A stretch of DNA of 64,000 nucleotides. Origin: Centipeda infelix ATCC 43532. GTDB taxonomy: Bacteria > Bacillota > Negativicutes > Selenomonadales > Selenomonadaceae. Shown in pieces: positions 3,571 through 61,334 of the stretch. The notes beneath the pieces are model-generated. The model was not told the origin of the DNA and did not search any database. It was given only the letters and a program-made list of their open reading frames with translations. The stretch's first letter is position 1; the number at the start of each line of letters is the position of its first letter. The stretch covers positions 1 to 64,000 of the forward strand of contig NZ_JH376797.1 in the NCBI RefSeq assembly GCF_000234095.1. The letters are read 5' to 3'. Both the position numbers and the translations under genes were made by a program.

Positions 3571-3571
3571 A

Positions 3572-3733
3572 GGAAGCACTGATAAATTCAGTCGCGCCAT
3601 CTTGACGTATCTTTTTTGCCCGCACTGTGTCGACAAATCCTCCACATAGCCCTTGCTATGCGTCCGGTTTGTCTCCTTGTTCGGACGAAAAAATCTACGC
3701 CAATCTGTCGAACTTCATTTTATCAGCGATTCC
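3572..3733 (+). mobile_element. Family-1 palindromic MITE-like element, copy 1
   Basis: Begins GGAAGCACTGATAAA and ends TTTATCAGCGATTCC, so the ends form imperfect terminal inverted repeats. The whole 162 bp is close to one palindrome, with arms meeting at CATAGC/GCTATG near the centre. It contains no transposase. It starts one base after the typA stop codon and has AT-rich flanks. Orientation is called + for copies starting GGAAGCACTG. Confidence 0.85.
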
Positions 3734-4539: not shown

Positions 4540-4554
4540 GTTCCGCAGTGTTTA

Positions 4555-4714
4555 GGAAGCACTGATAAATTCAACACCGTCATCTTGGCACGTTTTTTCG
4601 CCCTACCTGTGTCGAAAAATCCTCCACATAGCCCTTGTTATGTGTCCGGTTTGTCTTCTTGGCAGGACAAAAAATTAGCGCTCATCTGACGAACTTCATT
4701 TTATCAGCGATTCC
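4555..4714 (+). mobile_element. Family-1 palindromic element, copy 2, in the rpsB leader
   Basis: A full-length copy (160 bp) with the same ends and central CATAGC/TTATG palindrome, slightly diverged inside. It starts about 15 bp after the -10 box of the rpsB promoter. It should therefore be transcribed as part of the 5' leader and could form a long hairpin there. Confidence 0.85.
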
Positions 4715-14212: not shown

Positions 14213-14251
14213 GTATTAAAGATGTAGGGATATGTGAGCGGAGGGGAATAT

Positions 14252-15040
14252 ATGTCGGAAGATCGCGACTGGGAGCAGTTCAAGCAGAAGTTAAAGGCAA
14301 AGACGGAGATTGATCTCGATCTCTACAAAGAACCGCAGATGAAGCGGCGCATCAACAATCTGATTACACGCGCGGGATACAAGGGCTGTGTCGAGTATTT
14401 CGACCATGTCTGTGAGAATAAGGACGATTTTGCGGCGTTTATCGAGTATTTGACGATCAACGTGTCAGAGTTCTTCCGCACGCCGGAGAAGTTCAGCAAG
14501 CTCGAGACGGATGTCATTCCCGATCTCATGACACGTTCGCCGAAGCTCAATATCTGGAGCGCAGGCTGCTCCATCGGTGCAGAGCCGTATTCGCTCGCAA
14601 TCATCATGAAGGAGATGACGCCGACAACACGCCATCGCATCCTTGCATCTGATCTCGATATTGAGATTCTCGCAAAGGCCAAGCGCGGTGTCTATACGGC
14701 GGATGAGATAAAGAGTATGTCACCGGATCGCCGCCGCAAGTATTTCGATGAGGACAACGGTCATTTCGCCGTGAAGCAGGAAATCAAGAATATGATCGAG
14801 TTCAAGCGGCACAACCTGCTGCGGGATAAGTTCGAGACGGGCTTCGATTTGATCCTCTGCCGCAACGTCGTCATCTACTTCACGGATGAGGCAAAGGATC
14901 AGCTCTATCGCCATTTCTTCGAGGCACTCAAGCCCGGTGGGATTCTCTTTGTCGGGGCGACGGAGTCGATTCTGAACTTCCGCAAGATGGGCTATACGAG
15001 CTTTCAGCCGTTCTTCTACCAGCGGCCGCTTGAGTCATGA
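14252..15040 (+). CDS. cheR: CheR-type protein-glutamate O-methyltransferase
   Basis: Methylates glutamates on chemoreceptors using SAM, for adaptation. An N-terminal helical CheR domain (to about residue 75) is followed by the SAM-binding domain with NIWSAGCSIGAEPYSLA. The FDLILCRNVVIYF and GGILFVGATESI stretches are family-typical. The 262-aa length is that of a plain CheR without TPR repeats. Its RBS is gcggaggg before ATG 14252. It stands apart from other che genes, but a receptor is encoded at 57581. Confidence 0.93.
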   Translation: MSEDRDWEQFKQKLKAKTEIDLDLYKEPQMKRRINNLITRAGYKGCVEYFDHVCENKDDFAAFIEYLTINVSEFFRTPEKFSKLETDVIPDLMTRSPKLNIWSAGCSIGAEPYSLAIIMKEMTPTTRHRILASDLDIEILAKAKRGVYTADEIKSMSPDRRRKYFDEDNGHFAVKQEIKNMIEFKRHNLLRDKFETGFDLILCRNVVIYFTDEAKDQLYRHFFEALKPGGILFVGATESILNFRKMGYTSFQPFFYQRPLES

Positions 15041-22361: not shown

Positions 22362-22520
22362 GGAATCGCTGATAAAACAGTCTCTCAGATTGGCGTAGAT
22401 TTTTTCGTCCGAACAAGGCGGAAAACCGGACGCAGAGTGGTGCTCTGTGGAGGATTTTCTGCCGAAGTGCGGGCAAAAAAGATGCGTCAAGATGGTAGTG
22501 CTGAATTTATCAGTGCTTCC
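22362..22520 (-). mobile_element. Family-1 palindromic element, copy 3
   Basis: Inverted orientation: begins GGAATCGCTGATAAAA and ends TTTATCAGTGCTTCC. The centre pair is AGAG..CTCT in place of CATAGC/GCTATG. Compensating changes on both arms (gcagagtggtgctctg) keep the hairpin, which suggests the pairing rather than the bases is kept. Confidence 0.85.
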
Positions 22521-22572
22521 TTAGGCAAAAGCCTTTTTCATAGATGGTTTTCTGTCAAAAGGAGGTCTTTTC

Positions 22573-26802: not shown

Positions 26803-26965
26803 GGGAAGCACTGATAAATTCAGCCGCGCCATCTTAGCGCATCTTTTTTGCCCGCACTGTGTCGACAAATCCTCCACATAGCTTTGGCTATGCGTCCGGT
26901 TTGTCTCCTTGTTCGGACGAAAAATCTACGCCAATCTGACGGACTTCATTTTATCAGCGATTCCC
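26803..26965 (+). mobile_element. Family-1 palindromic element, copy 4
   Basis: A full 163-bp copy, GGGAAGCACTG to GCGATTCCC, flanked by TA on both sides (ttta/tagt). This is the copy that best fits insertion at, and duplication of, a TA dinucleotide. It starts about 19 bp after a -10 box and so lies in a 5' leader. Confidence 0.88.
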
Positions 26966-57469: not shown

Positions 57470-57500
57470 GGGAAGCACTGATAATTTTATCAGCGATTCC
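57470..57500 (+). mobile_element. Mini family-1 element: tips only
   Basis: GGGAAGCACTGATAA joined directly to TTTTATCAGCGATTCC. It retains only the two terminal inverted repeats, with the whole 130-bp middle missing. It forms a hairpin of about 13 bp straight after the permease stop codon (TAA|GGG). Confidence 0.85.
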
Positions 57501-57527: not shown

Positions 57528-57533
57528 TATAAT
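57528..57533 (+). promoter_or_regulatory. -10 box of the H-NOX receptor gene
   Basis: TATAAT at 57528-57533, 48 bp before the start. The -35 is poor (TTGCTT at 57501, 21-bp gap). Confidence 0.5.
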
Positions 57534-57580
57534 GTAAATTGGGATAGGTTATGTAAATGAGTTTGGGAGGGCTCTGTTGT

Positions 57581-59374
57581 ATGAAAGGTACTGTAGTCGC
57601 CACTTGGATTAGTACGTCGCGTGAGCTTTGGGGCAGCGCGTTGGTTGATAAGGTTATGCAGGAGATGGGGTGGGAGCCGGATCGGCTCTTTCTGCCTCTT
57701 GAGGACGTCGATGACGGCACGATCAAACGCCTGATGGATACGCTCAGCAAGGCGAATGGTCTGCCTGTTCGAGATATTTGGTATGAAATGGGACGTGATA
57801 ATATCAAGTCCTTTGCGCGTGTGTATCCGTCGTTTTTCGCGAATAAAAATCTATATACATTCTTGGCATCGACGTATGATATTCATGTAGAGATCGTGAA
57901 AAAGATTGCGGGCGCAAAACCGCCTCAGCTCATTATGACGCCGATTTCGGAATACGAGGCGGTATTTACCTATGACTCGAATCGGGGGCTTCTGGACTAT
58001 TTTCGCGGGCTGCTCAACGGTTCGGCAGAGTATTTCAAGGAAAAACTCGGGGTCGAGGTTCAGGAACAGACCGCCACGCATATGAAGCTGAAGCTCACCT
58101 TTGAAAAACCGATCTTCCGAGAGAAAAAATTTGGCATCAATAAGCTCGTCGCCTTTACCGGCTCGCTGTCGGGTGGCATTGGTCTGCTGACATTTGCAGG
58201 AACGCTGATTTTATCGGTGCTGCTGAGCCTTGGCGATGTTTCGTGGAAGACGTTCGTCATCCCTGCGTGCGGCGGGCTGTTTGCCGCGCTCGGCGCCAGT
58301 GTCCTCCTGCGTCCTCTCGGAGCAATTGAAAAAGAAATTGATCAGTTGGTCGAAAACAAATATTTCGACGCGCTGACGCTCCGCTCAGGCGACGTGTTCG
58401 AGCGGGTGAGTGACAAGCTGATCAAGTATCGCAAGCAGGCGCAGGCGAACTTTACGGGCTTCAAGGGGACAGGGGACGAGCTGCGGCGATATGGCATTGA
58501 CTTTGACGGGTTGGCAGAAAATATGGGCGGTGCCTCGGAGGATATCGCAGGCGTTATCAACGAGGTTGCCGACAGTGCCACGACAGGGGCGGAGAATACC
58601 ATATCCGTCGCAGCCTCCCTTAACAATAACATGACAGCACTGCAATCGGTCGTCGATGAGCAGGTCAAGAATAACGACGCGCTGAATTATGCCGTCAACA
58701 GCATTCACGAGGGCTTCAGCAAGGTGCGGGCGTCCAGTACGAACCTCAATCACAGCATGGAAAAATTCACTGAGGTGAAGGAAGAGGTCGAGTCCCTCAG
58801 AGAGGCGACGGAGAAGATCATGGCGATCACGGGGCTGGTGACGGATATCGCAGGGCAAACGAACCTGCTCGCCCTCAATGCAGCGATTGAAGCAGCGCGT
58901 GCAGGTGAGCAGGGGCGCGGGTTCAGCGTCGTTGCAGAGGAAGTTCGAAAGCTTGCAGAGCAGTCGCAGGGACACGCCGAGGTCATTACGAACGATGTCA
59001 TGGCGGTAACGCGTATCATCAACGAGGTCGTCCTTTCGGTCAACGAGGAATACGAGGTCTTGGAGCATGAGAGCAATCAGCTCGTCCGCGTTGTCGAGGG
59101 GAACAGTCAGTACATCGACAACATTCGCGGTGTGTCGGGAAGTATTTCGGGCATCATCGAGCAGCTCAAAACCGAGATGACGAATATGGAAGATGTTCTC
59201 GGCAAGGTCGAGCATATCGCCGCTATGGCGGAGCAAAACTCTGCCTCGACGGAGGAAGTAAACGCCGCTATGCACACGCATAATCTGAAGCTGCAGGATA
59301 TGATGGAAAAAATCAAGCAGTTCAAGGAAGTCACGACGGCGTTTTCGGCAGATATCAATCACTATAAGACCTGA
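57581..59374 (+). CDS. H-NOX haem sensor fused to a methyl-accepting chemotaxis receptor (Tar4-like)
   Basis: Residues 1-180 are an H-NOX (HNOB) domain that aligns without gaps in the key region to Thermoanaerobacter Tar4. It has the proximal haem ligand His102, the haem-propionate triad Tyr131-Ser133-Arg135, and Pro115. Trp9, Asn74 and Tyr140 form the distal pocket that binds oxygen in Tar4. Two membrane segments lie at about 200-222 and 233-252. A short HAMP-like stretch and the MCP signalling domain follow, with tip [27 protein letters not shown]. The length is 597 aa. Start ATG 57581 is preceded by GGGAGGG. Predicted gas (O2, NO) sensor for taxis with CheR (14252). Confidence 0.95.
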
Positions 59375-59386
59375 CCCTGTCCTATG

Positions 59387-59436
59387 AAAAAGGCTGCTGC
59401 ACAAAGACGGTTTTGTCCTTGTGCAGCAGCCTTTTT
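59387..59436 (+). terminator. Terminator of the H-NOX receptor gene
   Basis: Stem aaaaaggctgctgcacaa/ttgtgcagcagccttttt with an inner agacggttttgtcc loop. Its arm resembles that of the terminator at 36514. Confidence 0.9.
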
Positions 59437-59438
59437 AT

Positions 59439-59601
59439 GGAATCGCTGATAAAATGAAGTCCGTCAGATTGGCGTAGATTTTTTCGTCCGAACAAGGAGG
59501 CAAACCGGACGCATAGCAAGGGCTATGTGGAGGATTTGCCGACACAGTGCGGGCAAAAAAGATGCGTCAAGATGGCGGTGCTGAATTTATCAGTGCTTCC
59601 C
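59439..59601 (-). mobile_element. Family-1 palindromic element, copy 7
   Basis: Inverted full copy: GGAATCGCTGATAAAATG to CAGTGCTTCCC, then TA. The last base of the element serves as the G of the TAG stop of the minus-strand gene 59601-61229. Confidence 0.88.
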
Positions 59602-61229
59602 TAACGTATGAGTACAAATCCGCTTGCACTGTCCCAGACAACAGAGCCGTCCTCGGCTCGACTGACGGCAATATGGTCGAAATGGAGGAGGCAGCTGCCT
59701 GTCTCGTAGTTCTGTAGCTCCCTGCTGAGGCTGGTTTTTTCGTTTTGTTCCCCATATTGTACGAGTATGCGCGCATAGGGGTGCAGGTCGATGCGCTCCT
59801 CCGTGCCGTCTGTGCGCGGGACGACGAGGACACCCTCATGCGTAATATTGTTCGAATCAAATGGGAGCAGTGTGCGATAGCCTGCAATGGAGAGTTCTTC
59901 AAAGTCCTCTCCATAGAAGTAAAAGGACGTGCGCATCGCGTTGAACTTGGTGTCGAATACCTCTGCTGCGAGCGGGGAGGCATCCTGTTCGAGGTAGAAC
60001 GCAATATCGATGATCTCGTCCACAACCGCGGGCGGAGTGTCGTCACGCTTTATGATCTGTCCGTCCTGCAGTAGGTTGTGTTCTGTGAGCAGCTGATTGA
60101 GCCGTGCCTCCTGACTGCGGAGCGGTACGTCGACGACGTTGAGCGGGGTGAGACTGAAGATGAGCGCGAGGATGGCTGCGCAGAGGTATACTTGCTGGGG
60201 CTTTCGTCGAAGGAAGGCGACGGCAAGCGCATAGATGCCGCAGAACGTACAGATCATGGAGGTGTAGCGCAGCGTTGTCAGCCCGTACGCCTCATAGCGG
60301 AGCCAGACGCCGTAGAGCTGGACGGCGAGGATGGGGAGGAAGAGGAGCAGCCCCCATTTCAGAAAGCGGGAAAAGAGGGGAAGCCGTGTTTGTGCGGCGA
60401 GCGTGCCGAAGAAAAAGGCAAAGCCGAGGAGAGCGAACGAAGCGTACCAATTCATCGTGCCGACGGGCATCTCGCCCGCCCCGATGATCTTGCCGACGTA
60501 GAGGTAGAGGATGAGGAGCAGGAGGAGATAGACGGGGAAGAAGAGATAGAGGAGCAGCTTCTGCGTGGTGGTGGGGAACTCATAGCGTGCGCCCGCACTT
60601 GGCAGTGCACCGAGGAATGCGGCAAGCCCCCAGCCGCCGTATGCAATCAGACCGGAGAAGAGATAGGTCGTCTCGGGAAGCCATCCGTCCGCATCGGTGA
60701 CAATCAGTGCCCAGAATGCGGCGACGCAGAGGATGAGTCCGAGAAAGAGCAGGATGCTCGTTGCGATGGAAAAGGCGGTGGCAAAGAGGAGGGCGGGCAG
60801 CCCCGGGGCTTTGTTTGCTCGTTCGAGGAGAAAGAGTGCGAGGAAGGCGAGTGCGAGATAGATGCCCTGCGTCCCAACGATCAGCTGGCGGCTCGGATTT
60901 TCCACGCCATACCACGCATAGGCAAGAAGGAGGAACAGGACGGCAGACGATGCCGCGCGCAGCAGCAAGGATTTTTTTGCGGGGAATACATCCGTGAAGA
61001 GGCGGCAGGTGACTGCCGTCATCCATGCACCGAAGACGGCAGGGACGAGGCGTATGAGATGCTCGAAGTAGTCGCTGTGCCAACCCTCCGCATACAAATC
61101 GGGGCGCAGCAGGATAATACCTGTACTGACGAGGAAAAGGACTGTCTGCCAAAAGACGGCGACGGGAAAACGACGGATGAGTTCATGTGCCCTCCCCTTC
61201 AGCTGCAAGATGCGTATGGTGATATTCAT
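59601..61229 (-). CDS. Membrane protein, DUF4153-like (542 aa)
   Basis: About ten to twelve hydrophobic segments cover residues 20-370. A soluble C-terminal domain of about 170 residues follows, starting near the DVPLRSQEARLNQLL stretch. This layout resembles DUF4153 proteins (family call is tentative). The start ATG 61229 is chosen because agagagg is 9 bases upstream; ATGs at 61238 and 61235 are too close to it. The TAG stop is formed with the tip of a family-1 element. Function unknown. Confidence 0.78.
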   Translation of the reverse strand: MNITIRILQLKGRAHELIRRFPVAVFWQTVLFLVSTGIILLRPDLYAEGWHSDYFEHLIRLVPAVFGAWMTAVTCRLFTDVFPAKKSLLLRAASSAVLFLLLAYAWYGVENPSRQLIVGTQGIYLALAFLALFLLERANKAPGLPALLFATAFSIATSILLFLGLILCVAAFWALIVTDADGWLPETTYLFSGLIAYGGWGLAAFLGALPSAGARYEFPTTTQKLLLYLFFPVYLLLLLILYLYVGKIIGAGEMPVGTMNWYASFALLGFAFFFGTLAAQTRLPLFSRFLKWGLLLFLPILAVQLYGVWLRYEAYGLTTLRYTSMICTFCGIYALAVAFLRRKPQQVYLCAAILALIFSLTPLNVVDVPLRSQEARLNQLLTEHNLLQDGQIIKRDDTPPAVVDEIIDIAFYLEQDASPLAAEVFDTKFNAMRTSFYFYGEDFEELSIAGYRTLLPFDSNNITHEGVLVVPRTDGTEERIDLHPYARILVQYGEQNEKTSLSRELQNYETGSCLLHFDHIAVSRAEDGSVVWDSASGFVLIR

Positions 61230-61334
61230 AGCCATCATCCTCTCTGTGCATTGATATTCCTTATATTTTATGTGTATATGGAATCACCGTCAATGCGTAC
61301 CACATTAAGGAAATGAATACTTCTTCTCAATATC

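Follow-up and report, generated by a model that had tools for sequence, protein, structure and literature searches.

The window analysed here is a stretch of 64,000 nucleotides from Centipeda infelix ATCC 43532, whose genome assembly comprises 2.41 Mb in 29 contigs. It contains an intact frame for a methyl-accepting chemotaxis receptor with an N-terminal H-NOX domain (Table 1). Pfam places HNOB (PF07700) at residues 2-159 (145.1 bits against a cut-off of 25.5) and MCPsignal at residues 383-547 (107.3 bits against a cut-off of 34.6), so the signalling domain that an earlier note had described behind the H-NOX domain is indeed there. Hydropathy shows hydrophobic stretches at about residues 189-227 and 223-249, and a full-length model of low confidence (pLDDT 67.3, pTM 0.38) has helices at 196-215 and 223-242. 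Since two hydrophobic stretches separate HNOB from MCPsignal, the H-NOX sensor is probably cytoplasmic, and a short membrane hairpin would join it to the cytoplasmic MCP hairpin.

An alternative in-frame ATG lies at 57557, 24 bases upstream of the assigned one. We consider it the less likely start, because the GGAGGG motif just 5' of 57581 and the first residue of the solved homologue agree on the downstream ATG; the H-NOX of Thermoanaerobacter tengcongensis Tar4 (Tt H-NOX) begins with the same MKGT. The candidate TATAAT is found exactly at the same site in two other carrier loci (L142 and L147) and with one difference in a third (L145); a promoter scanner gave no plus-strand promoter-like site at this position. 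The hairpin behind the stop codon is likewise absent from the scanner's list, whose own count is at chance level.

Table 1. Features at the receptor locus and related genes of C. infelix (window positions unless a locus or contig is named)
Feature	Position	Strand	Basis
H-NOX methyl-accepting chemotaxis receptor, 597 aa, frame intact	57581..59374	+	ORF list, phmmer, Pfam
H-NOX domain, residues 1-183, with His102, Tyr131/Ser133/Arg135 and the triad Trp9/Asn74/Tyr140	57581..58129	+	alignment, Pfam, model
Two-helix membrane hairpin, about residues 196-242	58166..58306	+	hydropathy; full-length model, low confidence
MCP signalling domain, hairpin tip with Q at residue 426	58727..59221	+	Pfam
GGAGGG, ribosome-binding-site-like, 9 bases 5' of ATG 57581	57566..57571	+	by eye
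Possible -10 box TATAAT	57528..57533	+	by eye, weak
Hairpin 3' of the receptor stop, 22-nt arms, 95% complementary, T run at end: probable terminator	59387..59436	+	
Copies of the ~160-bp repeat	3571-3733, 4554-4714, 22362-22521, 26803-26964, 59439-59601		
31-base form of the repeat, both ends joined	57470-57500		
Lone repeat end	52628		up to 1 mismatch
DUF4153 membrane protein	59601-61238	-	
CheR gene	14234-15040		
Cytochrome bd subunit I	C3:57947-59266		
AhbA/AhbB and NirJ1/NirJ2 pair	L139 6174-8533 and L159 6982-8004 (C. infelix C2 and C4)		

The predicted haem pocket and its distribution

Residues 1-183 of the receptor match Tt H-NOX (1u4h, 1u55 and mutants) with an E-value of 1.6e-48 in phmmer, ungapped to about residue 160 and with 42.6% identity over 183 columns, a likeness that, as judged from sequence, is far beyond chance. 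In the translation W9, D45, N74, H102, P115, Y131, S133, R135 and Y140 carry Tt numbering, and the proximal histidine and the YxSxR motif (H102, Y131, S133, R135) are present. The agreement with Tar4 that the earlier note had seen at His102, Tyr131/Ser133/Arg135, Trp9, Asn74 and Tyr140 therefore holds at each of these residues, both in the translation and in the ungapped alignment. Six of the 21 positions that we tabulated are unlike Tt, with V5, Y82, S97, T98, I101 and L138 standing for I, F, M, M, V and Y; position 5 is among those altered in solved Tt mutants (I5F, from the title of the structure).

A haem-free model of the domain, built on an alignment of 50 rows that all came from the window or the fetched loci, reached a pLDDT of 92.8 and a pTM of 0.88. 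Its closest structure is Tt H-NOX 4it2_A (Z 26.9, 1.4 A over 180 residues), a value at which the domain has the H-NOX fold, and the oxygen complex of Tt (1u55_B) follows with Z 26.8. Tt entries as a group lie at Z 23.8-26.9, while Nostoc, Shewanella and human sGC H-NOX reach at most 22.0 (Nostoc 22.0, human sGC about 20); Foldseek also places Tt entries at the top. The comparison of a predicted structure with Tar4 that the earlier note had proposed, here made at the level of the fold with a haem-free model, gave Tt H-NOX as the best match at a Z of about 27.

We searched for PF07700 in the genomes of the family (matches in 17 of 189), of the class (59 of 380, including the 17 of the family) and in a draw from the phylum (40 of 398, two of them counted before), which gave 97 distinct genomes with a match. 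Five loci from named records were added, two of which (L002 and L003) encode the same proteins as G030 and G033. After deduplication, 87 proteins of at least 590 aa remained: 59 from the class, the window included, 26 from the rest of the phylum and two from Caloramator. Trp9, Asn74 and Tyr140 are present in all 87 intact H-NOX-MCP proteins, which are related by descent, so that 87 is not a count of independent events; two of these proteins have an identical H-NOX domain. The MCP domain of the window's receptor is matched by all 87, with a worst E-value of 1.1e-19. Eight short H-NOX ORFs (<260 aa) have none of the triad residues as far as they align, and none has an MCP match in frame; His102 is kept in all eight and YxSxR in seven. 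One of the eight, L062, is interrupted by a stop codon and has a gap where position 9 should align. Kept outside these counts were three split-frame loci (L006, L103 and L105), in which the triad residues are seen once the aligned pieces are combined; locus L104, which gave no match; and genome G563, whose match fell short of the cut-off and yielded no locus.

Among the genomes sampled from the phylum, then, an O2-type H-NOX pocket and fusion to an MCP go together, a rule already stated in a 2022 review (PMC8738867). The earlier note had held that most H-NOX domains lack the distal tyrosine; given the triad in all of the MCP fusions, this is true of other H-NOX proteins and not of the MCP-fused class. 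By sequence, the pocket of the C. infelix receptor is not special and its gene is ordinary, adding a member to a receptor class already known. Val at position 5, Tyr at 82 and Ser at 97 occur in 72, 67 and 65 of the 87 proteins, respectively, and Leu at 138 in seven. Position 98 is Met in 71 and Thr in five, and all five with Thr belong to the genus of C. infelix.

An accessory gene in the genus

The receptor is present in five of 14 genomes of the genus (G000, G025, G030, G033 and G034), at two sites. The C. infelix H-NOX domain shares 97% identity with its counterpart in Centipeda periodontii and 96% with the one in Selenomonas sp. oral taxon 892. All 14 genomes have the upstream permease, which is followed by the receptor in G000, G025, G030 and G034. 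In G033 a DUF4153 gene comes after the permease with no receptor between them, and the receptor lies on another contig (L160 4812-6629; the permease site is L144), beside genes that we take from their translations to be GMP-synthase-like and sugar-kinase-like; G033 and Selenomonas sp. oral taxon 892 encode identical receptor proteins. Within about 320 bases of the permease, the non-carriers have either DUF4153 (G029, G031, G035 and G036) or a glutamine-synthetase-like gene (G024, G026, G027, G028 and G032). Judged from these arrangements, the receptor gene is accessory and relocatable in the genus. A DUF4153 membrane protein adjoins the receptor in the window and is found in this neighbourhood in several carriers and non-carriers.

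Patchiness of this kind could in principle follow from loss of chemotaxis, an explanation that we rejected, as all 14 genomes of the genus, C. infelix among them, have the CheA marker domain (PF02895). A recent gain from outside the class was not supported by a quickly built tree of 88 domains, one of them Tt, which puts the outside-class rows together on one side of a single branch (SH-aLRT 92); the tree requires two changes for the family rows and three for the other class rows, and is weak, with 30 of 84 inner branches below 80 and several rows on long branches. Identity to the other carriers is 88-91% for the permease, close to the 93-96% of the whole receptor protein. Nor do we favour a functional link, as an operon, to the SsuBC/TauC-like ABC genes upstream: a repeat lies in the intervening gap of about 110 bases, a separate hairpin follows the receptor's stop, and the nine non-carriers have the ABC genes but no receptor.

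The repeat in that gap belongs to an element of about 160 bp with the inverted ends GGAATCGCTGATAA / TTATCAGTGCTTCCC, of which the window holds five copies. From its sequence it is probably a MITE family of the C. infelix genome. The receptor is flanked by the 31-base joined form on one side and the last ~160-bp copy on the other, a similar element lies downstream of the receptor in G025 (L069 2415-2577), and one inexact end is found in G030 (L002 7873). Capture of the gene by its flanking repeats was considered and set aside, given four more copies elsewhere in the window and no copy, at up to 1 mismatch, in the permease-receptor gap of L142, L145 and L147. For the same reasons the element appears to be a general repeat, though it may have played a part in moving the receptor gene.

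Haem supply, ligand and response

A haem receptor needs haem, and we found no match to ferrochelatase (PF00762) at E 0.001 in the C. infelix genome. Weak matches occur in 12 of the 189 family genomes, and one genome passes the cut-off, only with frame neighbours added; the same model matched 8 of 14 control genomes. C. infelix does have, side by side, AhbA (150 bits, cut-off 140) and AhbB (188.7 bits, cut-off 125) of siroheme decarboxylase, and adjacent radical SAM genes that score as NirJ1 (687, cut-off 650) and NirJ2 (595.8, cut-off 500). This last pair stays below the cut-offs for AhbC (512.6 of 650) and AhbD (352.2 of 500). Because AhbA/AhbB and NirJ1/NirJ2 were found, a siroheme-based haem route, assigned except for its last two steps, is likely in C. 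infelix; ahb-nirJ1/nirJ2 genes have been proposed for archaeal haem synthesis in a passage of PMC3004389. Perhaps NirJ1/NirJ2 take the place of AhbC/AhbD in this genome, which has both cytochrome bd and H-NOX. Plain AhbD was discarded as a marker: its model matches 188 of the 189 family genomes, none over the cut-off, and all 14 controls, one over the cut-off. Since the controls also match, an AhbD match by itself is no proof of haem synthesis.

A haem-free receptor for another signal, such as redox or membrane state, would fit the missing ferrochelatase (one family genome of 189 over the cut-off), and a Tt-like fold by itself is no proof of haem loading. We nevertheless regard it as highly improbable: the haem-contact motifs are kept in an open frame of 597 aa, the AhbA/AhbB and NirJ1/NirJ2 genes offer a plausible haem route, and the cytochrome bd of the same genome also requires haem.

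The whole is explained best, and with good probability, by a Tar4/Tt-type haem gas receptor that binds O2 and steers swimming. By analogy with its relatives, the receptor is likely to bind haem and O2, because it belongs to a well-described class with the triad, the Tar4-type O2-binding H-NOX-MCP proteins of obligate anaerobes. The N-terminal domain in the cytoplasm would bind haem b through His102, and Tyr131/Ser133/Arg135 would hold its propionates. O2 would bind the ferrous haem and accept a hydrogen bond from Tyr140, braced by Trp9 and Asn74; the Tyr140/Trp9/Asn74 triad is described in the consulted part of a molecular-dynamics paper (PMC7356049). Distortion of haem and domain by the ligand would be relayed by the membrane hairpin to that of the MCP domain, which would set CheA activity and, with CheR-type adaptation, direct swimming along O2 gradients. 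The C. infelix genome has 15 stretches that match MCPsignal; two of these share a frame, and one contains a stop.

The O2 binding put forward in the earlier note is thus the standing view of the class, and it carries the caveat that applies to Tt itself, whose role as an O2 sensor is called not yet demonstrated in the pertinent passage of PMC9814294. According to the same passage, Ct (Tt) H-NOX binds NO, CO and O2, and NO binding is therefore to be expected of the C. infelix receptor as well. The protein could then bind O2 in vitro and yet, in the anaerobic habitat, have NO produced by host cells or by the reduction of nitrite as the natural ligand by which the cell steers. We think this unlikely, as a pure NO sensor would have no need of the triad that is found in all 87 MCP fusions and in none of the eight short H-NOX ORFs.

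If O2 is the ligand, the direction of the response has to be considered. The earlier note read the receptor as serving an anaerobe that flees oxygen, or senses NO in the mouth or gut. Of that reading, the Tar4-type receptor with its O2-type triad stands, and the genome has CheA and CheR genes for it to work with; flight does not follow from the sequence, and cytochrome bd would fit attraction too. Subunit I of cytochrome bd is present in C. infelix and in all 26 genomes tested, comprising the 14 of the genus and 12 other H-NOX-bearing genomes of the family. The receptor may therefore be an attractant receptor for traces of O2, leading the cell towards low O2 that its cytochrome bd uses, an option that we hold only tentatively: cytochrome bd may serve O2 removal alone, and it also occurs in the nine genus genomes without the receptor.

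Identity of the pocket does not fix affinity, because, in the part of PMC7356049 concerned, the H-NOX of Clostridium botulinum and that of Cs (Tt) agree in the residues nearest the ligand and differ about 1000-fold in KD for O2 (5.3e-5 M versus 4.4e-8 M). It is conceivable, if rather doubtful, that the genus branch is an accessory attractant sensor for O2 with altered tuning, in which changes near the pocket (Y82, S97 and T98) would shift affinity to the micromolar range, so that only strains with the relocatable gene would steer to the zone of low O2 in which cytochrome bd operates. In the open-licence literature of PubMed Central we found no paper on the C. infelix receptor. Carriers and non-carriers in this genus, which probably dwells in the mouth, could help to test Tar4-type receptors as O2 sensors.

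Comparison with known systems

The closest known system is Tar4 of T. tengcongensis / Caldanaerobacter subterraneus (1u4h, 1u55), which shares with the receptor the N-terminal H-NOX, the residue numbers, the MCP fusion and the fold; unlike Tar4's host, C. infelix is presumably no thermophile, to judge from its named relatives. The H-NOX-MCP proteins of Caloramator (L004 and L005) have 50% domain identity to the receptor, the same triad and an equal frame length, but differ in A5, M98, V101 and F138 and are 40-41% identical over the whole protein. The H-NOX of C. botulinum, compared from the part of the literature cited above (PMC7356049), has its ligand-closest residues as in Cs/Tt and binds O2 much more weakly. 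H-NOX proteins of stand-alone length, namely the eight short ORFs and those of Nostoc and Shewanella in the PDB, have H-NOX homology in common with the receptor; the eight short ORFs, however, lack both Trp9/Asn74/Tyr140 and the MCP domain, whereas the C. infelix receptor has both.
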